Shown: positions 1-54,047 of the stretch, piece by piece
Layout: every line of letters starts with the position of its first letter
Numbering within the stretch: position 1 is the stretch's first letter
Assembly: GCA_902520335.1 (NCBI GenBank)
Contig: CABYNS010000002.1
Span: 124,001-188,000 of the forward strand
Origin: an uncultured Pelagibacteraceae bacterium
Lineage (GTDB): Bacteria > Pseudomonadota > Alphaproteobacteria > Pelagibacterales > Pelagibacteraceae
DNA length: 64,000 nucleotides
Direction: 5' to 3'
The notes under the pieces: generated by a model
What the model was told of the DNA's origin: nothing
Databases searched by the model: none
What the model saw: only the letters and a program-made list of their open reading frames with translations
Translations under genes and position numbers: made by a program

Positions 1-271
1 AATACCCGCCATCTTTTTTTGTTTGTGGTTTTGGGCAATTTATTTTTGATTTATTTAATTTATCCATCAAATTCATAAAAAAAGGCAATTCTTTTTTTGA
101 TACTCTTTTTTCGAAAATTGTAAGTATAAATTTTTTATTCTTTGATTTTAGTAAATAGTTTGTATTTTCAATTCCTTGCTTTATACCTTTAAATTCTAAA
201 ATTTTTTCTATATCAAATTTTTTGTTAATATAAGAAATATCCTTTTTACTTATTTTCGTATAAACAGCCAT
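1..271 (-). CDS. thrB: Homoserine kinase (ThrB type, APH fold), N-terminal part, truncated by window edge
   Basis: Own translation of the minus strand from ATG at 271: MAVYTKISKKDISYINKKFDIEKILEFKGIKQGIENTNYLLKSKNKKFILTIFEKRVSKKELPFFMNLMDKLNK..., the ThrB N-terminal pattern (GIEN(S/T)NYLL, FILTxxEKRV). Not in the ORF track. Confidence 0.85.
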   Translation of the reverse strand, partial: MAVYTKISKKDISYINKKFDIEKILEFKGIKQGIENTNYLLKSKNKKFILTIFEKRVSKKELPFFMNLMDKLNKSKINCPKPQTKKDGGY

Positions 272-272
272 T

Positions 273-1226
273 TTAGTTTAATTTTTTCGGTGCTTTAAAA
301 ACAACATTTTCTTTAATTATTTCTACTTCATCTATACTGACTGTAAATTTATTTTTTAGCTCATCTATAAAATTATTGACCAAAATTTCTGGTGCGGAAG
401 CCCCAGAGGAAATACCAATTGTATTTGAATTTTCAATTAAATCGAATGGTATTTCACTTTGCGAATGAATTAATAGTGAATTTGAACAACCGGATTTTCT
501 TGCAACTTCAACTAATCTAACTGAATTAGATGAATTTCTACTGCCAATTACAAAAAATAAATCACATTTTTTTGCAATATTTTTGACAGCCATTTGTCTA
601 TTCGTTGTAGCGTAACAAATATCTTCTTTCATTGGTTCTTTAATATCAGGAAATCTATCTTTTAAGATCTGAATTATATCTTTTGTATCGTCTACCGATA
701 ACGTCGTTTGAGTAACATATGAAATTTTTTTGTTATTTTGAGGTTTGTATTTTTTTGCCTCATCCTCATTTTGAACAAGATCAATTGAGCCTTTAGGTAA
801 CTGGCCCATAGTGCCAATTACTTCAGGGTGATTTTCATGTCCTATCAAAATTAAATGATAGCCAGCTTTATGTAAATTTTCAGCTTCTCTATGTACTTTG
901 GATACTAATGGACATGTAGCATCTATATAAGTCATATTATAGTTTTTAGCATCCTCAGGTATTTTTTTGGGGACACCATGTGCTGAAAAAATAACTGGTC
1001 TTGTTCTATCTGTTATTTCTTCGAGTTCCTCAACAAAGATTGCACCTTTGTTTTTTAAATCATCAACTACATATTTATTATGAACAATTTCATGACGAAC
1101 ATAAACTGGAGCGCCATATTTTTTAATTGATTTTTCTACAATTTCTATAGCTCTTTCAACACCTGCACAAAAGCCTCTGGGCGCAGAAAGCAATATCTTT
1201 AACGGTTTATTTTTCATTTTTTTCAA
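273..1226 (-). CDS. ispH: 4-hydroxy-3-methylbut-2-enyl diphosphate reductase
   Basis: LLSAPRGFCAGVERAI, HGVP, DATCPLVSKVH, GHENHPEV, TQTTLSVDDT, SSNSVRLVEVA, SSGASAPE: IspH signature blocks. Confidence 0.97.
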   Translation of the reverse strand: MKKMKNKPLKILLSAPRGFCAGVERAIEIVEKSIKKYGAPVYVRHEIVHNKYVVDDLKNKGAIFVEELEEITDRTRPVIFSAHGVPKKIPEDAKNYNMTYIDATCPLVSKVHREAENLHKAGYHLILIGHENHPEVIGTMGQLPKGSIDLVQNEDEAKKYKPQNNKKISYVTQTTLSVDDTKDIIQILKDRFPDIKEPMKEDICYATTNRQMAVKNIAKKCDLFFVIGSRNSSNSVRLVEVARKSGCSNSLLIHSQSEIPFDLIENSNTIGISSGASAPEILVNNFIDELKNKFTVSIDEVEIIKENVVFKAPKKLN

Positions 1227-2130
1227 TCAGATACTCAAGCAATATATGTGGAAAGGTCAAAGACGCCAAACCTATAAATATGATTTTAAGAATTGAACTA
1301 TCAAAATTGTAAGTATTATTTAGCAAATAAAGTCCAATTACACAAAAAATAGCAGTAATAAATGTCAGAGGTAAAGCTTTTTTTATAAATATTTTAAATC
1401 CATTACCAAGATTATTCTCATCTAATTCAGACATTAATGAGATGCTGTGTCTTATGGAATGCAAAAAACAAAAATAAATTGTGAAAGCTACTAACGGTGA
1501 AAAATAATAGTTTATTATTAGAATCGAAAAATAATCCAAAAATATTGTAAATTTCTTAAGCTCAAAATTTTTTGTAAATAGTAGAATGTTTGCTAAAGTT
1601 GAGAGAATTACAAAATATAGCGATACTCTGTTAGATTCTATTAAATCTAAAAATTTATAGAAAGTTTCATTTTCAATTAAAAGCAATCTGAATATTGATA
1701 TGGTTTCATCAAAATGGAAATACATTGGTGCAAAAACTATTAAAGAACCTTTTAAGAAAAATAAAAATTGATTGTAATAAGAGTTTTCAATTGTTAAAAA
1801 TTGAGTGTCTTCTTTTCCAAAATGATATGAAGCTACCATTAAAAATATGATCAAAGAAACATATGGTATCAATATCCATAAAAATATTACTATTAGAGCT
1901 ATTAAAATGTATCCAAAGTAAAAAATAGAAAAATTATCAATTTTTAAAATTTGAAAAAGTTTTCTTCCTTTAAAATTGTCAAGTGATCCATGAGATATAC
2001 CGATACTTAAAATTAATAACAAACAAATAAATGGTGAAATGGTGAAAGTATTAATCTTAAAAGCTATCAATGAAAAAATATTACAAAGTAAAAAAAAAAT
2101 GAAAGAATGATTGAAATTTATTTTTTTCAT
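1207..2130 (-). CDS. blh: Brp/Blh-family beta-carotene 15,15'-dioxygenase (retinal formation)
   Basis: Polytopic membrane protein with GISHGSLDN, SYHFGKEDT, CFLHSIRHS histidine motifs; adjacent to crtY/crtB/crtI. Confidence 0.9.
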   Translation of the reverse strand: MKKINFNHSFIFFLLCNIFSLIAFKINTFTISPFICLLLILSIGISHGSLDNFKGRKLFQILKIDNFSIFYFGYILIALIVIFLWILIPYVSLIIFLMVASYHFGKEDTQFLTIENSYYNQFLFFLKGSLIVFAPMYFHFDETISIFRLLLIENETFYKFLDLIESNRVSLYFVILSTLANILLFTKNFELKKFTIFLDYFSILIINYYFSPLVAFTIYFCFLHSIRHSISLMSELDENNLGNGFKIFIKKALPLTFITAIFCVIGLYLLNNTYNFDSSILKIIFIGLASLTFPHILLEYLIEKNEK

Positions 2131-2152
2131 TTATTATTTATTTTTTAATTTA

Positions 2153-3220
2153 CTAATAAAACAATGCTTTGATAAATGTCAATTTAGGCATTCTTAAAAT
2201 AATAGACAAATCCTCGAAAAAATTGCTTTTATTAGATAAAAATTTTATAACAGTCTTTGGTGAAGCCTTAAACATTTTAAAGAATATATCAGACATTTTT
2301 TCTGGATGTTTTTCAAGAACTCTCAAAAATATTTCATCTAAAAATTGATACTTAGTACTTATTTTATATTTTTTAACATTAGAAATATTTTCAATATTTT
2401 CTCTAATATATCTGCTGTGATCTTGAATATTTAAAAAAGTATAACCCGTACTTAATCTAGTCATACCACCAGCAGTTCCAATATTTATTTTATTTTTTTC
2501 ATGCTTATCGATTGGATAAAATAATGGTATTGCGCCCTCTTCTCTATAAATTATTTTATAATCTTTCAAATTTAAATGATTTTCAATATAATCTTTTATT
2601 TGCTTGTCATAATCCTTCTGAGAATTGTCATTCATTTTAGATAACCAAGTTGTTTCTACTAAAGCAGTATTTTTTGAGTAGGGTAATGTATAAAAAAAAT
2701 GTACACTTTCTCTCTGGTCACAATCAAAATCCATCAGATTAAAAATTTCATCATCAAAAAAATTACTTTTAGTTTCAATTTCTACCCCACAGAAATGTTG
2801 CCAAAGGTTTCGATGATCTTTTTTAATGGATGGCACGCTATTAAAAACAAAAGCGTCTTTTAAATCAATTTGACTAATATCTTTGAAGAAAGAAATATTT
2901 TTGTTTTCATTTAGTATGTTATTAATTTTTTCATAGAACAAACCACTGTCAATACTTTGATACGGAGAATTTTTACATTGTAAATAGTTGGTTTTATCTG
3001 GGATATTAATTGAAAAATTTTCCCACTTTTTTTTTACACAATCATCAAAGTTATGAGATGTTACTCCCCAAAAAGACCAAGTTTTATCTTTTTTGTATTC
3101 ATCTCTTGGTTCTATGATTGCTAAAGTTTTATCTTTAAGCTTTTCATGAATTTCTAATTCATATGCCAAAGATAAACCAGCACAACCTCCACCGATAATG
3201 ACATAGTCAAATTCTTTCAT
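2153..3220 (-). CDS. crtY: Lycopene beta-cyclase
   Basis: N-terminal FAD motif YVIIGGGCAGLSLAYEL, TWSFWG, GAIPLFYP, GTAGGMTRLSTGYTF; gene context. Confidence 0.93.
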   Translation of the reverse strand: MKEFDYVIIGGGCAGLSLAYELEIHEKLKDKTLAIIEPRDEYKKDKTWSFWGVTSHNFDDCVKKKWENFSINIPDKTNYLQCKNSPYQSIDSGLFYEKINNILNENKNISFFKDISQIDLKDAFVFNSVPSIKKDHRNLWQHFCGVEIETKSNFFDDEIFNLMDFDCDQRESVHFFYTLPYSKNTALVETTWLSKMNDNSQKDYDKQIKDYIENHLNLKDYKIIYREEGAIPLFYPIDKHEKNKINIGTAGGMTRLSTGYTFLNIQDHSRYIRENIENISNVKKYKISTKYQFLDEIFLRVLEKHPEKMSDIFFKMFKASPKTVIKFLSNKSNFFEDLSIILRMPKLTFIKALFY

Positions 3221-4058
3221 CTAAATTTATTTCCTCATTAATTAAAAAATGATCATGTTTAATCTGATTTTCCTTAATACTGGTTAAAGATAACTTTATA
3301 AGGTCAAAAATTGCAAAAATTGTCTCAATACATTTTTCAATATTGGATACGTAAATTTTTCCAGAATCTTTATAGTTTTCAAATGTTTTTTTATTGAGAA
3401 TATTATAGCCTATTTTTCGGTAGATCCTTCTAGCGACTAAAATTGAAAATCTAAAACTTATTGGAATGTCTTTTATAGAATAAAAGGAATTCTCATAAAA
3501 AGTATCCGCAAGATTTATAGTTGATGAAATTTCTTCGAAATTTTTATCTATATAAAATCTATTTATTTTTGAGTCTTCAATTACATCTCTTGATATATTT
3601 GTAAGTTGCATTGCAATACCGAGATCAATAGCTGACTTAAGTGAGCTTATTTTATTAACTTTTAAAATTTTTGCCATCATTAAGCCAACAGTCCCAGCGA
3701 CTCTGTAAGAATAAATTAAAAGGTCTTTTTTTGAATTTAATATCACCTTATCTTTGATATCTGAACTTATACCATCTAATAGATCTTCGATAATTTTTAC
3801 CGAAATTTTAAATTCATCAATAAGGTCCCACATATTTTTAATAATTGGATTATCAAAATTTTTCTGAACGAAATCTGCTTTGAATTGTTTGAATTTAATT
3901 TCTTTAACTTCTAATTTTTCTTCATCATCTGCAATATTGTCAGCAACTCTACAAAAATCATACAATGCAGAGCATTTTTTATATGTTTTTTTGGGTAAAA
4001 AAAAACCTGCCCAATTAAAAGATTTAGCATAAACTGATAAGTAATTTTTATCAGACAT
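3207..4058 (-). CDS. crtB: Phytoene synthase
   Basis: SFNWAGFFLP, YDFCRVADNIADD, AGTVGLMMAKIL, AMQLTNISRDVIED; squalene/phytoene synthase motifs. Confidence 0.95.
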   Translation of the reverse strand: MSDKNYLSVYAKSFNWAGFFLPKKTYKKCSALYDFCRVADNIADDEEKLEVKEIKFKQFKADFVQKNFDNPIIKNMWDLIDEFKISVKIIEDLLDGISSDIKDKVILNSKKDLLIYSYRVAGTVGLMMAKILKVNKISSLKSAIDLGIAMQLTNISRDVIEDSKINRFYIDKNFEEISSTINLADTFYENSFYSIKDIPISFRFSILVARRIYRKIGYNILNKKTFENYKDSGKIYVSNIEKCIETIFAIFDLIKLSLTSIKENQIKHDHFLINEEINLDERI

Positions 4059-5518
4059 TATAAAATTTTTTCTAACACTTTAGCTGATGAAAGCACTCCA
4101 GGCACACCTGCTCCAGGATGGGTTCCTGCACCAACAAAATAAAGTCCTTTATATATCTCAGATTTATTATGGAATCTAAAATATGCAGACTGTGAAAATT
4201 TTGGTTGGATCGAAAAGCCTGAACCATATTTTGTATTTAATTCTTTTTCAAAATAATTAGGGGTTAAGTAAAAATCTTCTACAATATTATCCTTAAGATT
4301 TGGCATTAAATCTTTTTGCATTTTATCGATAACTAAATTTTTCATTTTTTCTCCCTCAACAGACCAGTCAATTTTTGATTGATTATTTGGCACTGGGACC
4401 AAAACATAAAAGCAATCATTACCCTCAGGTGCCATAGTTTTATCAGTTGCAGATGGTCTATGAAGATAATAGCTAATATCGTCATTCAATTTTTTATTAT
4501 TGAAAATATCATCTAGATGGTCTTTATATTTATTTCCAAATTTAATTGTATGATGCTCAACATTTTCGTATTTTTTTTTTGTACCAAAGTAATAAACAAA
4601 TAAACCCATTGAATACTCCATTCTGCTTTTTTTCCATTTAAAAAGAAATGAATTACTCGTATTCCCATTTAACATTTTCTCGTAAACAGCAGGAGGATCA
4701 GCATTACAAATTACGTTGTTAGATTGTATTATTGTTTGATCATCTAATTGGATACCAGTGATTTTATTTTTGTTTGAAATGATCTTGGTAACTTCGTGAC
4801 CTTTAATTATTTCAACCCCAACTTCATTCATCAATTTTTCAAAACCTTTGATAATATTTCCTGTTCCACCCATTGAGTAATGAATACCCCATTTTTTTTC
4901 TAAATATAAAATTAATCCATATATTGAGGTCGTAGTAAAAGGATTCCCTCCAACTAATAATGGATGCATACTTAACATTCTTCTCAATTTCTCATTTTCT
5001 ATATAGGATGAGACTAAAGCATAAACAGATTTGTAACTTTTTAGTTTAAGTAATGCTGGCAATTGTTGAATCATTACAAAAGGTTTATCAAAGGGTACAT
5101 CAGCAAGCTCCGTAAAACCTTTGTCAAAAATTTTTTTTGTAAAATTTACTAATTTTTCATAACCCTCAACATCTTTTTCATTTATCTTTTTTATCTGTTT
5201 TTTCATCTCCAACTCATCCCCAGAGTAATTAAATTTTGACTTATCCTCGAAAATAAATTGATACCAAACTTTTAGGTTAGTGAGTTTTATATAATTTTTG
5301 GGGTCTTTTTGAAATAATTCGAATAATTCATTTATCAAATACGGAGCAGTTATTACTGTGGGGCCACCATCATAAATGAAGCCATTTTTTTTAAATACTC
5401 TTGCTCTTCCTCCAAGATCCTTATGTTTTTCTATTAAAGTTACTTTATGACCTTTAGCTTTAAGACGTAAAGCTGCAGCTATTCCTCCAAATCCTGAACC
5501 TATTACAACCGAATTCAT
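4058..5518 (-). CDS. crtI: Phytoene desaturase
   Basis: VIGSGFGGIAAALRLKAKGHKVTLIEKHKDLGGRARVF ... DGGPTVITAP ... YFVGAGTHPGAGVPGVLSSAKV. Confidence 0.96.
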   Translation of the reverse strand: MNSVVIGSGFGGIAAALRLKAKGHKVTLIEKHKDLGGRARVFKKNGFIYDGGPTVITAPYLINELFELFQKDPKNYIKLTNLKVWYQFIFEDKSKFNYSGDELEMKKQIKKINEKDVEGYEKLVNFTKKIFDKGFTELADVPFDKPFVMIQQLPALLKLKSYKSVYALVSSYIENEKLRRMLSMHPLLVGGNPFTTTSIYGLILYLEKKWGIHYSMGGTGNIIKGFEKLMNEVGVEIIKGHEVTKIISNKNKITGIQLDDQTIIQSNNVICNADPPAVYEKMLNGNTSNSFLFKWKKSRMEYSMGLFVYYFGTKKKYENVEHHTIKFGNKYKDHLDDIFNNKKLNDDISYYLHRPSATDKTMAPEGNDCFYVLVPVPNNQSKIDWSVEGEKMKNLVIDKMQKDLMPNLKDNIVEDFYLTPNYFEKELNTKYGSGFSIQPKFSQSAYFRFHNKSEIYKGLYFVGAGTHPGAGVPGVLSSAKVLEKIL

Positions 5519-51181: not shown

Positions 51182-53008
51182 GTGGAAAGAATTATAACTA
51201 AATCATTTGCGAGGTTGATGGGACGAGGAGCCCACCGTGGTTTTATCACATATGAAGAACTAAGCAAATCTCTAGGTAAAAGAAATTTATCAGATGAAAA
51301 TTTATCTCAAGCTTTCATTCATATTTTAGATGAAAAAATAATATTAGTTGAAAAAAAATCTGACTTTAAAGTATTAAGAAAAAAAGAAAATTCCTCTAAA
51401 GATGAAGGTAAAACAATCGAGAAAAGCGACGACCCAATTAGAATGTATCTAAGAGAAATGGGTGGCGTAGAACTATTGTCTAGAGAAGGGGAAATAGCAA
51501 TTGCAAAAAGAATAGAAGCAGGCAAGGATGTAATGTTAATTGCTTTATCTCAAAGCCCAATCACTGCTCAACAATTTTTTGATTGGGATCAAAAATTACA
51601 AAACGATGAAATTTTAGTAAGAGAAATAATCGATATAGACACAAACTATATGGAGGATGAAAATACTGGCCCAAGTGCTAAACAAAAAAATGCAGGGGAA
51701 GATGAAAAAGATGAAACTTCAACTGATGACAGTGATGATGATTTTAATCCAACTCTTGCTGCTATGGAAACTGAAATTAAACCAAAAGTTTTAAAAACAG
51801 TTCATTTACTAACTAAAGAATACCGTAAATTAATAAAATATCAAAAAGAAAAATTAGATTGCATTCTTAACTCAAAAATTTTTTCAACTTCTAAAGAGAA
51901 GGGGTATGAAAAAACTGTTAATGATATTTTAGAAAACATTAAATCACTTCAGTTATCACCGTCAGTATTAGAAGAGCTTGTTCAGAGACATTATGTTGAG
52001 AATAAAAAGATAATTTCTTTAGAAGGAAATCTTTTAAGGTTAGCCATGAATCAAAAAATACCAAGAGGTGAATTTATTAAATTTTATATTGGGAATGAAA
52101 TAAACCCTAATTTGAAAAAATTTTTAGATACAAATACTTTATGGAAACAATTTTTTAGCAAGAATAAGGAAGAGTTTAAGAATATAAGAGAAAGGTTAGT
52201 GGAAATAAGCCACAAACTTGGAATGTCAGTAACTGATTTTAAAAAATTAGTTAGTAGAGTCCAAAAAGGTGAAAAGGAGTCGAGAATAGCAAAAAAAGAA
52301 ATGGTGGAAGCAAATTTACGTCTAGTCATCTCTATTGCCAAAAAATATACTAACAGAGGTCTTCAGTTTTTAGATCTAATTCAAGAAGGAAACATTGGGT
52401 TAATGAAAGCAGTAGATAAATTTGAATATCGGAGAGGCTATAAATTTTCCACATATGCAACTTGGTGGATAAGACAAGCAATAACCAGATCTATTGCTGA
52501 CCAAGCAAGAACGATAAGAATCCCTGTCCACATGATTGAAACAATAAATAAAATTGTGAGAACTCAAAGGCTTATTTTGAGCGAGTTTGGTAGAGAAGCT
52601 ACCCCTGAGGAGTTAGCTAAAAAACTTAGAATGCCATTAGATAAAGTTAGAAAAGTTTTAAAAATTTCAAAAGAACCTGTATCTTTAGAAAAACCTGTTG
52701 GAGATGAAGAAGATAGTAGTTTAGGAGATTTTATAGAAGACACAAAAGCTCTAGCACCTTTAGAGCAAGCAATTAAATCAAATTTAGGAGAGGCTACTAC
52801 AAAAATACTTTCAACTTTAACACCAAGAGAGGAGCGTGTTTTAAGAATGAGATTTGGTGTAGGAATGAACACCGATCATACTTTAGAGGAAGTTGGATTA
52901 CAATTTTCAGTGACCAGAGAAAGAATACGTCAGATAGAAGCGAAGGCTCTAAGGAAACTTAAGCATCCAAGTAGATCAAAACAACTTAAAAGCTTCTTAG
53001 AAAGTTAA
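51182..53008 (+). CDS. rpoD: RNA polymerase primary sigma factor (sigma70)
   Basis: GTG start; [101 protein letters not shown]. Confidence 0.98.
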
Positions 53009-53011
53009 TTT

Positions 53012-53086
53012 GGGCCGTTAGCTCAATAGTAGAGTACTGCATTGACATTGCAGGGGTAGTTGGAGCGTAACCAACACGGCCCACCA
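53012..53086 (+). tRNA. tRNA-Val (GAC) with non-canonical D-loop and T-loop
   Basis: Acceptor GGGCCGT/ACGGCCC, anticodon stem CTGCA/TGCAG with loop TTGACAT, T stem GTTGG/CCAAC; D-loop AATAGTA, T-loop AGCGTAA; encoded CCA. Confidence 0.88.
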
Positions 53087-53096
53087 TAATATCATT

Positions 53097-53954
53097 CTAT
53101 TTATCTAAATCTCTCAATATTTTTTTAATTTTTATGTTGTCTAATAAGTTAAATATAAAGTTCCTATAGAATATTTTTCTAATAATTCTTCTAAAGAAAC
53201 TCCTCTTATTTAAGAGTCCATATTTTTTGTCAAATTTAGTTTTCAATTCTCTAAAATATTCATTATGACGATAATCAATTGCCCACTCATTCTGTGCTCT
53301 ATTAGCAACCTCTTTATTTTCAAAGCATTTTCTTGAGTCAATTGAAAAAACAACTATTGATTCAAAAAATTCTACTAAAAAAATTTTTTTTGAATAAAAG
53401 TTTAATTTTTTTTTTAATAATGGTGATCTTCTATGAATATTATCAACAACATTTTTGGCGTAATTTATAAAAGAATATTTAGATGGATTATTGAATTCTT
53501 TTTTTACATAGCTTGTACCTGTGTCTTCAACAATAATTTTTCCACCATCTTTGATATAGGGTAGAGAGTGGTGAACAGTACTAATTTGTTGCAAATTTTT
53601 GTGCCCACCATCATCTAAAATTATATCAACTTTACCCTCATTTTTATAAAAATAATCCCAAAATTTTTTATCACTTTGATTACCAATATAAATTTTAAAA
53701 CCATTTTTTTCTAATTTTTTTGCGTTTGGATTAAGATCTATACCGATTATTTTTGCTTTATTACCAAAGTATTTTTTCCACATAAATAATGATCCGCCGT
53801 TTGCGACCCCAATTTCAACAAATTTAATTTTTTTATTCTTATAATCGGATAAAATTTTTTCATAAACTTGAAAATAACTACTCCATTTTATTGAATATTT
53901 TTTTGAGTTTGTGAAAGACTTATATATAGAAAGTTTTTTTGAGTCTTTGTTCAT
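53097..53954 (-). CDS. Class I SAM-dependent methyltransferase-like protein
   Basis: VEIGVANGGSLFMWKKYFGNKAKIIGIDLNPNAK, VDIILDDGGHKNLQQISTVHHSLPYIKDGGKIIVEDTGTSY. Confidence 0.75.
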   Translation of the reverse strand: MNKDSKKLSIYKSFTNSKKYSIKWSSYFQVYEKILSDYKNKKIKFVEIGVANGGSLFMWKKYFGNKAKIIGIDLNPNAKKLEKNGFKIYIGNQSDKKFWDYFYKNEGKVDIILDDGGHKNLQQISTVHHSLPYIKDGGKIIVEDTGTSYVKKEFNNPSKYSFINYAKNVVDNIHRRSPLLKKKLNFYSKKIFLVEFFESIVVFSIDSRKCFENKEVANRAQNEWAIDYRHNEYFRELKTKFDKKYGLLNKRSFFRRIIRKIFYRNFIFNLLDNIKIKKILRDLDK

Positions 53955-54047
53955 ATTTAAATATCTGTGAAAACACTATCATAAATTAAAAATTAAATAT
54001 CTCAACTTGCGTGGTCACAAAAAACATTGTAAACATCATCTTATTTT

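Follow-up and report, generated by a model that had tools for sequence, protein, structure and literature searches.

Between rpoD and a tRNA-Met gene of an uncultured Pelagibacteraceae bacterium lies a tRNA-Val(GAC) gene with intact stems and altered D- and T-loops. Two tertiary pairs, G18:Psi55 and U54:A58, count as near-universal constants of tRNA, and Psi55 counts as its most universal modification; the gene has neither pair. Is it a decayed or misread copy, a tRNA withdrawn from protein synthesis, or an elongator tRNA folding through other tertiary contacts? The organism belongs to SAR11, a group that ranks among the most abundant bacteria of the ocean. Comparative sequence analysis leads us to regard it as likely that the gene encodes a tRNA-Val(GAC) that functions in elongation and in which a second, compensated set of tertiary nucleotides has taken over the contact between D-loop and T-loop.

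A tRNA-Val(GAC) gene with an altered elbow

In the window, the whole stretch of 64,000 nucleotides that was analysed, ARAGORN predicts the gene at the same coordinates as an earlier note made from the sequence, and Rfam family RF00005 scores 53.6 bits over 53012-53083, above its gathering score of 29, which places it among the tRNAs. The locus comprises the following features:

51182-53008, + strand: open reading frame for a sigma-70-like RpoD, ending 3 nt before tRNA-Val(GAC) (ORF, RpoD search)
53012-53086, + strand: tRNA-Val(GAC) gene with encoded CCA (ARAGORN, Rfam, identical copies in most genomes of the genus)
53025-53031, + strand: D-loop AATAGTA, read as A14 A15 T16 A18 G19 T20 A21 (sequence, orthologue alignment)
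53044-53046, + strand: anticodon GAC, reading GUC and GUU (ARAGORN)
53054-53058, + strand: variable loop GGGTA, with A48 (53058) opposite A15 and no Levitt pair
53064-53070, + strand: T-loop AGCGTAA, read as A54 G55 C56 G57 T58 A59 A60 (sequence, alignment, pair counts)

The 5' half reads GGGCCGT TA GCTC AATAGTA GAGT A CTGCA TTGACAT TGCAG and the 3' half GGGTA GTTGG AGCGTAA CCAAC ACGGCCC A CCA. All helices are paired, with a single wobble in the D stem (G10.U25), as had been noted. The bacterial valine identity elements A73, G3:C70, A35 and C36 accompany the GAC anticodon (identity set of PMC9976931), which assigns the gene to tRNA-Val; pair 4:69 is C4:G69 in the window gene versus U4:A69 in E. 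coli.

The canonical elbow of bacterial elongator tRNAs is held by G18:Psi55, G19:C56 and m5U54:A58 (Roovers 2021, PMC7912444; 2016 review, PMC4810234). Here A18 (53028) stands in place of G18 and faces G55 (53065), A54 (53064) faces T58 (53068), and G19 (53029) with C56 (53066) is retained. These are the replacements that the earlier note had read, and its loop sequences and its numbering of positions 15, 18, 19, 48, 54, 55, 56 and 58 agree with ours. Its Levitt pair, A15 (53026) with A48, holds as far as the bases go and fails as a conserved compensated pair, standard pairs at 15:48 occurring in only 45.8% of the orthologue family; A15:A48 is uncompensated and counts against the reading of a compensated elbow.

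The RpoD frame adjoins tRNA-Val in most, not all, of the congeneric loci that we parsed. The spacer that separates tRNA-Val from tRNA-Met behind rpoD (window 53087-54047) ranges from about 60 to 1200 bases among congeners, with differing gene content. In G186 a glycosyltransferase-like ORF directly follows rpoD and no tRNA-Val is there (L220, after 819). In G077 an orphan 3' half of tRNA-Val(GAC) (L146, 3001-3045; G077:C1:397221-397265) lies beside a glycosyltransferase-like ORF; it is distant from the complete gene, has the opposite orientation and looks like an attachment-site remnant.

Conservation and covariation among orthologues

The odd gene is no chance finding. Of 61 genomes sampled from its genus (g1), 51 contain some match to it, and 41 contain it with 100% identity over 75 nt. 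An order-wide search of 198 genomes found the odd T-loop to be dominant in g1, and a scan of GTDB contigs with a D-loop/T-loop pattern returned only SAR11 records among the matches listed (Pelagibacteraceae, Pelagibacterales, Candidatus Pelagibacter), which assigns the window to SAR11.

All four stems (acceptor, D, anticodon and T) are paired at 100% in a set of 24 distinct orthologues, and the whole tested structure contains 135 two-sided compensatory cells versus a shuffled mean of 44. Positions 54:58 are UA in 14 orthologues and AU in all the others, 10 in number (100% paired); G19 with C56 is invariant in all 24. Diverged copies (G001, G009, G071, G222 and G214) carry compensated changes in the acceptor, anticodon and T stems and have kept A18/G55 and A54/U58: nearly every stem pair is replaced and the odd loops are unchanged.

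A canonical GG D-loop with a TTCRA T-loop is found in G037, G103, G105 and G215 of g1, in genera g2, g3, g5 and g6, and in family f2. The few canonical relatives show the odd elbow to be an evolved state; most relatives have the odd loops, so the canonical ones do not mark this copy as an error or pseudogene, the outcome that the earlier note had named as fatal to its proposal. G037 shares identical acceptor and anticodon stems with the window gene and has a canonical elbow (T-loop TTCGATT), the differences being the elbow plus T-stem pair 52:62. The elbow positions have thus shifted jointly within a tRNA body that is otherwise alike. An intermediate state is observed in the tRNA-Val of G242, whose D-loop ATTAGTA and T-loop TGCAATC combine A18/G55 with T54/A58.

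The same elbow in other SAR11 tRNAs

The odd elbow is not unique to tRNA-Val(GAC), for which the earlier note had described it: it is also present in tRNA-Phe, tRNA-Thr and many phage tRNAs. All 32 tRNAs of the complete genome G012 were read. There is one tRNA-Val(GAC) gene and one tRNA-Phe(GAA), the latter with D-loop AGGAGTA and T-loop TGCGAAT (A18/G55); tRNA-Thr(GGT), with D-loop AGGTAGTA and T-loop TGCAAGT, is likewise A18/G55. Since G012 has no other tRNA-Phe, the A18/G55 elbow would have to support translation, decoding UUU and UUC. SAR11 also has a canonical tRNA-Val(TAC). Canonical tRNA-Phe is found in some congeners (G004, G037), so that the states are mosaic.

In SAR11 tRNA-Val(GAC), tRNA-Phe(GAA) and tRNA-Thr(GGT), the bases at 18 and 55 are strictly coupled, being either G18/U55 or A18/G55. 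Among distinct SAR11 tRNAs we counted 20 with A18/G55, 78 with G18/U55 and none mixed; related sequences are included and inflate these counts, and the 78 include six unparsed Ser/Tyr D-loops, which were read by eye as GG. We take this joint switch (20 versus 0 mixed) as defining the A18:G55 class proposed here. With a pattern open to either purine at 18, every G55 tRNA among the matches listed for the 198 genomes of the order had A18. Genomes with an A18/G55 tRNA number 111 of 117 in g1, 16 of 17 in g5, 2 of 2 in g6 and 2 of 4 in g4, and none in g2, g3 and f2. A search of 290 alphaproteobacterial genomes with the A18/G55 pattern matched real tRNAs only in g1, the lone match outside it not being a tRNA by its own sequence. 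These patterns demand a GCTC...GAG D stem.

The tRNA-Thr(GGT) of the window genome itself (L066, G000:C1:186841-187111) has T-loop GTCAGTA and a GG D-loop, that is, G18/U55 with G54/G58. This is another 54:58 replacement, with five viral parallels.

Viral tRNAs

Scans of IMG/VR gave at least 120 matches for A18 with GTGCRANNC and 96 for A18 with GAGCGTNAC. Among 1459 distinct neighbouring viral tRNAs, a set that leaves out the pattern-selected tRNAs and comes from loci selected for the presence of one such tRNA, so that its frequencies are not population estimates, 125 are A18/G55, none G18/G55, 14 A18/U55 and 1280 G18/U55; positions 54/58 are UA in 1391, AU in 37, AA in 16 and GG in 5. The viral A18/G55 tRNAs span 42 anticodon classes and may make up most or all of the tRNAs of a contig: 27 of 27 in L448 (located at 1-5189 of the IMG/VR contig), 14 of 15 in L353, 12 of 13 in L449 and 13 of 16 in L408. 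Two viral tRNA-Val(TAC) genes (L547, L464) have AATAGTA, GGGTA and AGCGTAA all in common with SAR11 tRNA-Val, at up to 83% identity. The joint substitution with intact stems that the earlier note had pointed out is thus borne out by covariation of 18/55 and 54/58 in the orthologues, in three SAR11 tRNAs and in viral tRNAs.

No A18/G55 tRNA was found in the stretches read of the named phages T5, RcXuper, DSS3_MAL1, TinyTim, CcrBL9 and Paxi, and the 75-mer had no BLAST match in named phages. RcXuper, DSS3_MAL1 and TinyTim (L561, L562, L563) have tRNAs with A54/U58 and U55 (T-loops ATCGTTA, ATCGTGA and ATCGTAA), so that the exchange at 54/58 does not depend on the one at 18/55. In the tRNA-Ile(GAU) of phage T5 (L560, 28210-28286), T56 stands with an apparent A19, a compensated outer 19:56 change that recurs in several viral tRNAs.

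TruB and modification of the T-loop

TruB, a Psi55 synthase that is otherwise near-universal, requires GUUYRANYC at positions 53-61 (PMC7912444), where the gene reads GAGCGUAAC. As bases 54 and 55 are not U and the motif is absent, neither Psi55 nor m5U54 can form in tRNA-Val(GAC), and the earlier note was right that the TPsiC modification sites are missing. The TruB domain was not found in any of 117 g1, 17 g5 and 2 g6 genomes; it was found in 2 of 2 g2, 2 of 2 g3, 4 of 4 g4, 43 of 54 f2 and 14 of 14 control genomes. An RpoD tree groups g1, g5 and g6 (support 92/89) apart from g2, g3 and g4, which are grouped together, so that one loss of TruB is enough. Searches for TrmFO gave sub-cut-off matches only, in open frames of about 620 aa that apparently encode the paralogue MnmG.

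The odd tRNA-Phe tracks the loss of TruB by genus. The loss is not necessary for the odd tRNA-Val, because two TruB-positive g4 genomes (G156, G214) carry it, which rules out TruB loss as sole cause; nor is it sufficient, because TruB-less g1 genomes (G037, G103, G105, G215), g5 and g6 keep a canonical tRNA-Val. Contamination does not explain G156: G214, a complete g4 genome, has its own odd tRNA-Val beside the same initiator tRNA. A plausible role for TruB loss is that of a facilitator, the constraint on U55 being probably relaxed where the synthase was lost, a relation that is one of correlation only.

A probable second elbow and its rivals

At the level of gene sequence, covariation shows two joint exchanges, from G18/U55 to A18/G55 and from U54/A58 to A54/U58, with the outer G19:C56 pair kept. 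The result is a covarying alternative elbow which looks like another workable way to reach a nearly universal fold, and the comparisons above support the earlier note's interpretation of a re-engineered elbow. In such a fold, G55-C56-G57 would form a GNR turn instead of the UNR turn U55-C56-R57, A18 would still insert between bases 57 and 58 and bond to G55, and A54:U58 would take over the loop-closing role of U54:A58; this would preserve the L shape and leave the G19:C56 face exposed. A18/G55 may have come first and the 54/58 swap later, as the former is seen alone in the tRNA-Val of G242, in tRNA-Phe and in tRNA-Thr.

Nothing beyond the deviation itself speaks for a pseudogene or a sequencing or assembly error, which we reject as wholly improbable: the same sequence recurs in dozens of independent assemblies, some of them single-contig genomes, its stems are under compensatory constraint and its CCA is retained, so the earlier note's view that it is not decayed stands. 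We may also consider that tRNA-Val(GAC) has left translation to donate valine to a non-ribosomal pathway, as Staphylococcus tRNA-Gly does for the cell wall. Loss of conserved elbow nucleotides is the expected mark of such a tRNA, and the canonical tRNA-Val(TAC) might cover all four valine codons. This is nevertheless very unlikely: the single tRNA-Val(GAC) gene of the complete genome G012 is not an extra isoacceptor, GTT and GTC make up 58% of valine codons in 35 long ORFs of the window, the changes are compensated rather than lost, and A18/G55 is also found in the sole, indispensable tRNA-Phe. Neutral drift alone, by which elbow pairs in the absence of TruB would settle in any foldable combination without advantage, agrees with the lack of TruB in the clade with the odd tRNA-Phe; however, the exact loops are fixed while the stems turn over, and in TruB-positive g4 as well, so that something holds the odd state. 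We consider drift alone a possible but rather doubtful account.

Import from phages, with A18/G55 (and A54/U58) tRNAs recombining into SAR11 chromosomes, is a question of origin and compatible with a rebuilt elbow. It would explain the patchy, mosaic distribution, and several observations fit it: the many A18/G55 tRNAs on viral contigs, the two viral tRNA-Val(TAC) genes with the whole loop set, the four or more changes of elbow state needed on the RpoD tree, the orphan 3' half in a glycosyltransferase-bearing region of G077, and the tRNA-Val of g4 genome G156, which equals that of g1 genome G071 over 75 nt although their RpoD sequences differ strongly. Yet the canonical tRNA-Val of G037 (86%, with shared acceptor and anticodon stems) is no more distant from odd SAR11 tRNA-Val than any viral copy is, G242 offers a stepwise intermediate, named phages have no match, and 75 nt cannot give the direction of transfer. 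We hold import to be a tentative proposal; the rebuilt elbow may have arisen either stepwise in place or by exchange with phage tRNA genes. More speculatively, nature may possess a second self-consistent elbow (A18:G55, with optional A54:U58), independent of T-loop uridine modification, fixed in several SAR11 tRNAs, used by whole viral tRNA sets and passing between viruses and SAR11, an idea we put forward with less than even confidence. Such an elbow may let tRNAs evade nucleases or other enzymes that recognise the TPsiC loop.

Compensated swaps in a cellular lineage and in many viruses show which features of the elbow are required, namely an 18/55 contact, a closing 54/58 pair and G19:C56, and which are replaceable. 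This bears on tRNA gene finders, on modification mapping and on the exchange of tRNAs between phages and hosts.

Comparison with known systems

No description of a natural A18:G55 elbow was found in the literature searched, the experimental papers of the Steinberg group lying outside that search. With the canonical elbow, SAR11 tRNA-Val shares the cloverleaf, the 7-nt T-loop, G53:C61, G19:C56, purine 57, A14, A21 and U8; it differs in A18:G55, in A54:U58, in having no U at 54 or 55 and in the absence of a Levitt 15:48 pair. Eukaryotic initiator tRNA-Met has A54:A58 (PMC7912444). A54 is thus common to both, but the initiator keeps A58 and the U55/G18 contact, whereas in SAR11 tRNA-Val 54/58 is exchanged and 18/55 is changed in addition.

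For the specialised Staphylococcus tRNA-Gly that is active outside translation, PMC4810233 cites Giannouli 2009. Its D- and T-loops are said to contain atypical nucleotides. Both bacterial tRNAs have atypical loops; the tRNA-Gly is an extra isoacceptor outside translation, while SAR11 tRNA-Val is the sole GAC isoacceptor and its changes are compensated. Zagryadskaya, in two studies of 2003 and 2004 cited in PMC7912444, reportedly obtained suppressor tRNAs from randomised D- and T-loops, with mimics of the 54:58 pair said to include G54:G58. Replacement of 54:58 is common to these suppressors and SAR11, the tRNA-Thr(GGT) of the window genome also having G54:G58; theirs are laboratory selections, whereas the SAR11 elbow is natural and lineage-wide. 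The closest likeness is with the IMG/VR viral tRNAs, which have the same coupled A18/G55, often with A54:U58; these differ in being viral genes, often in arrays, one contig having its entire set converted.
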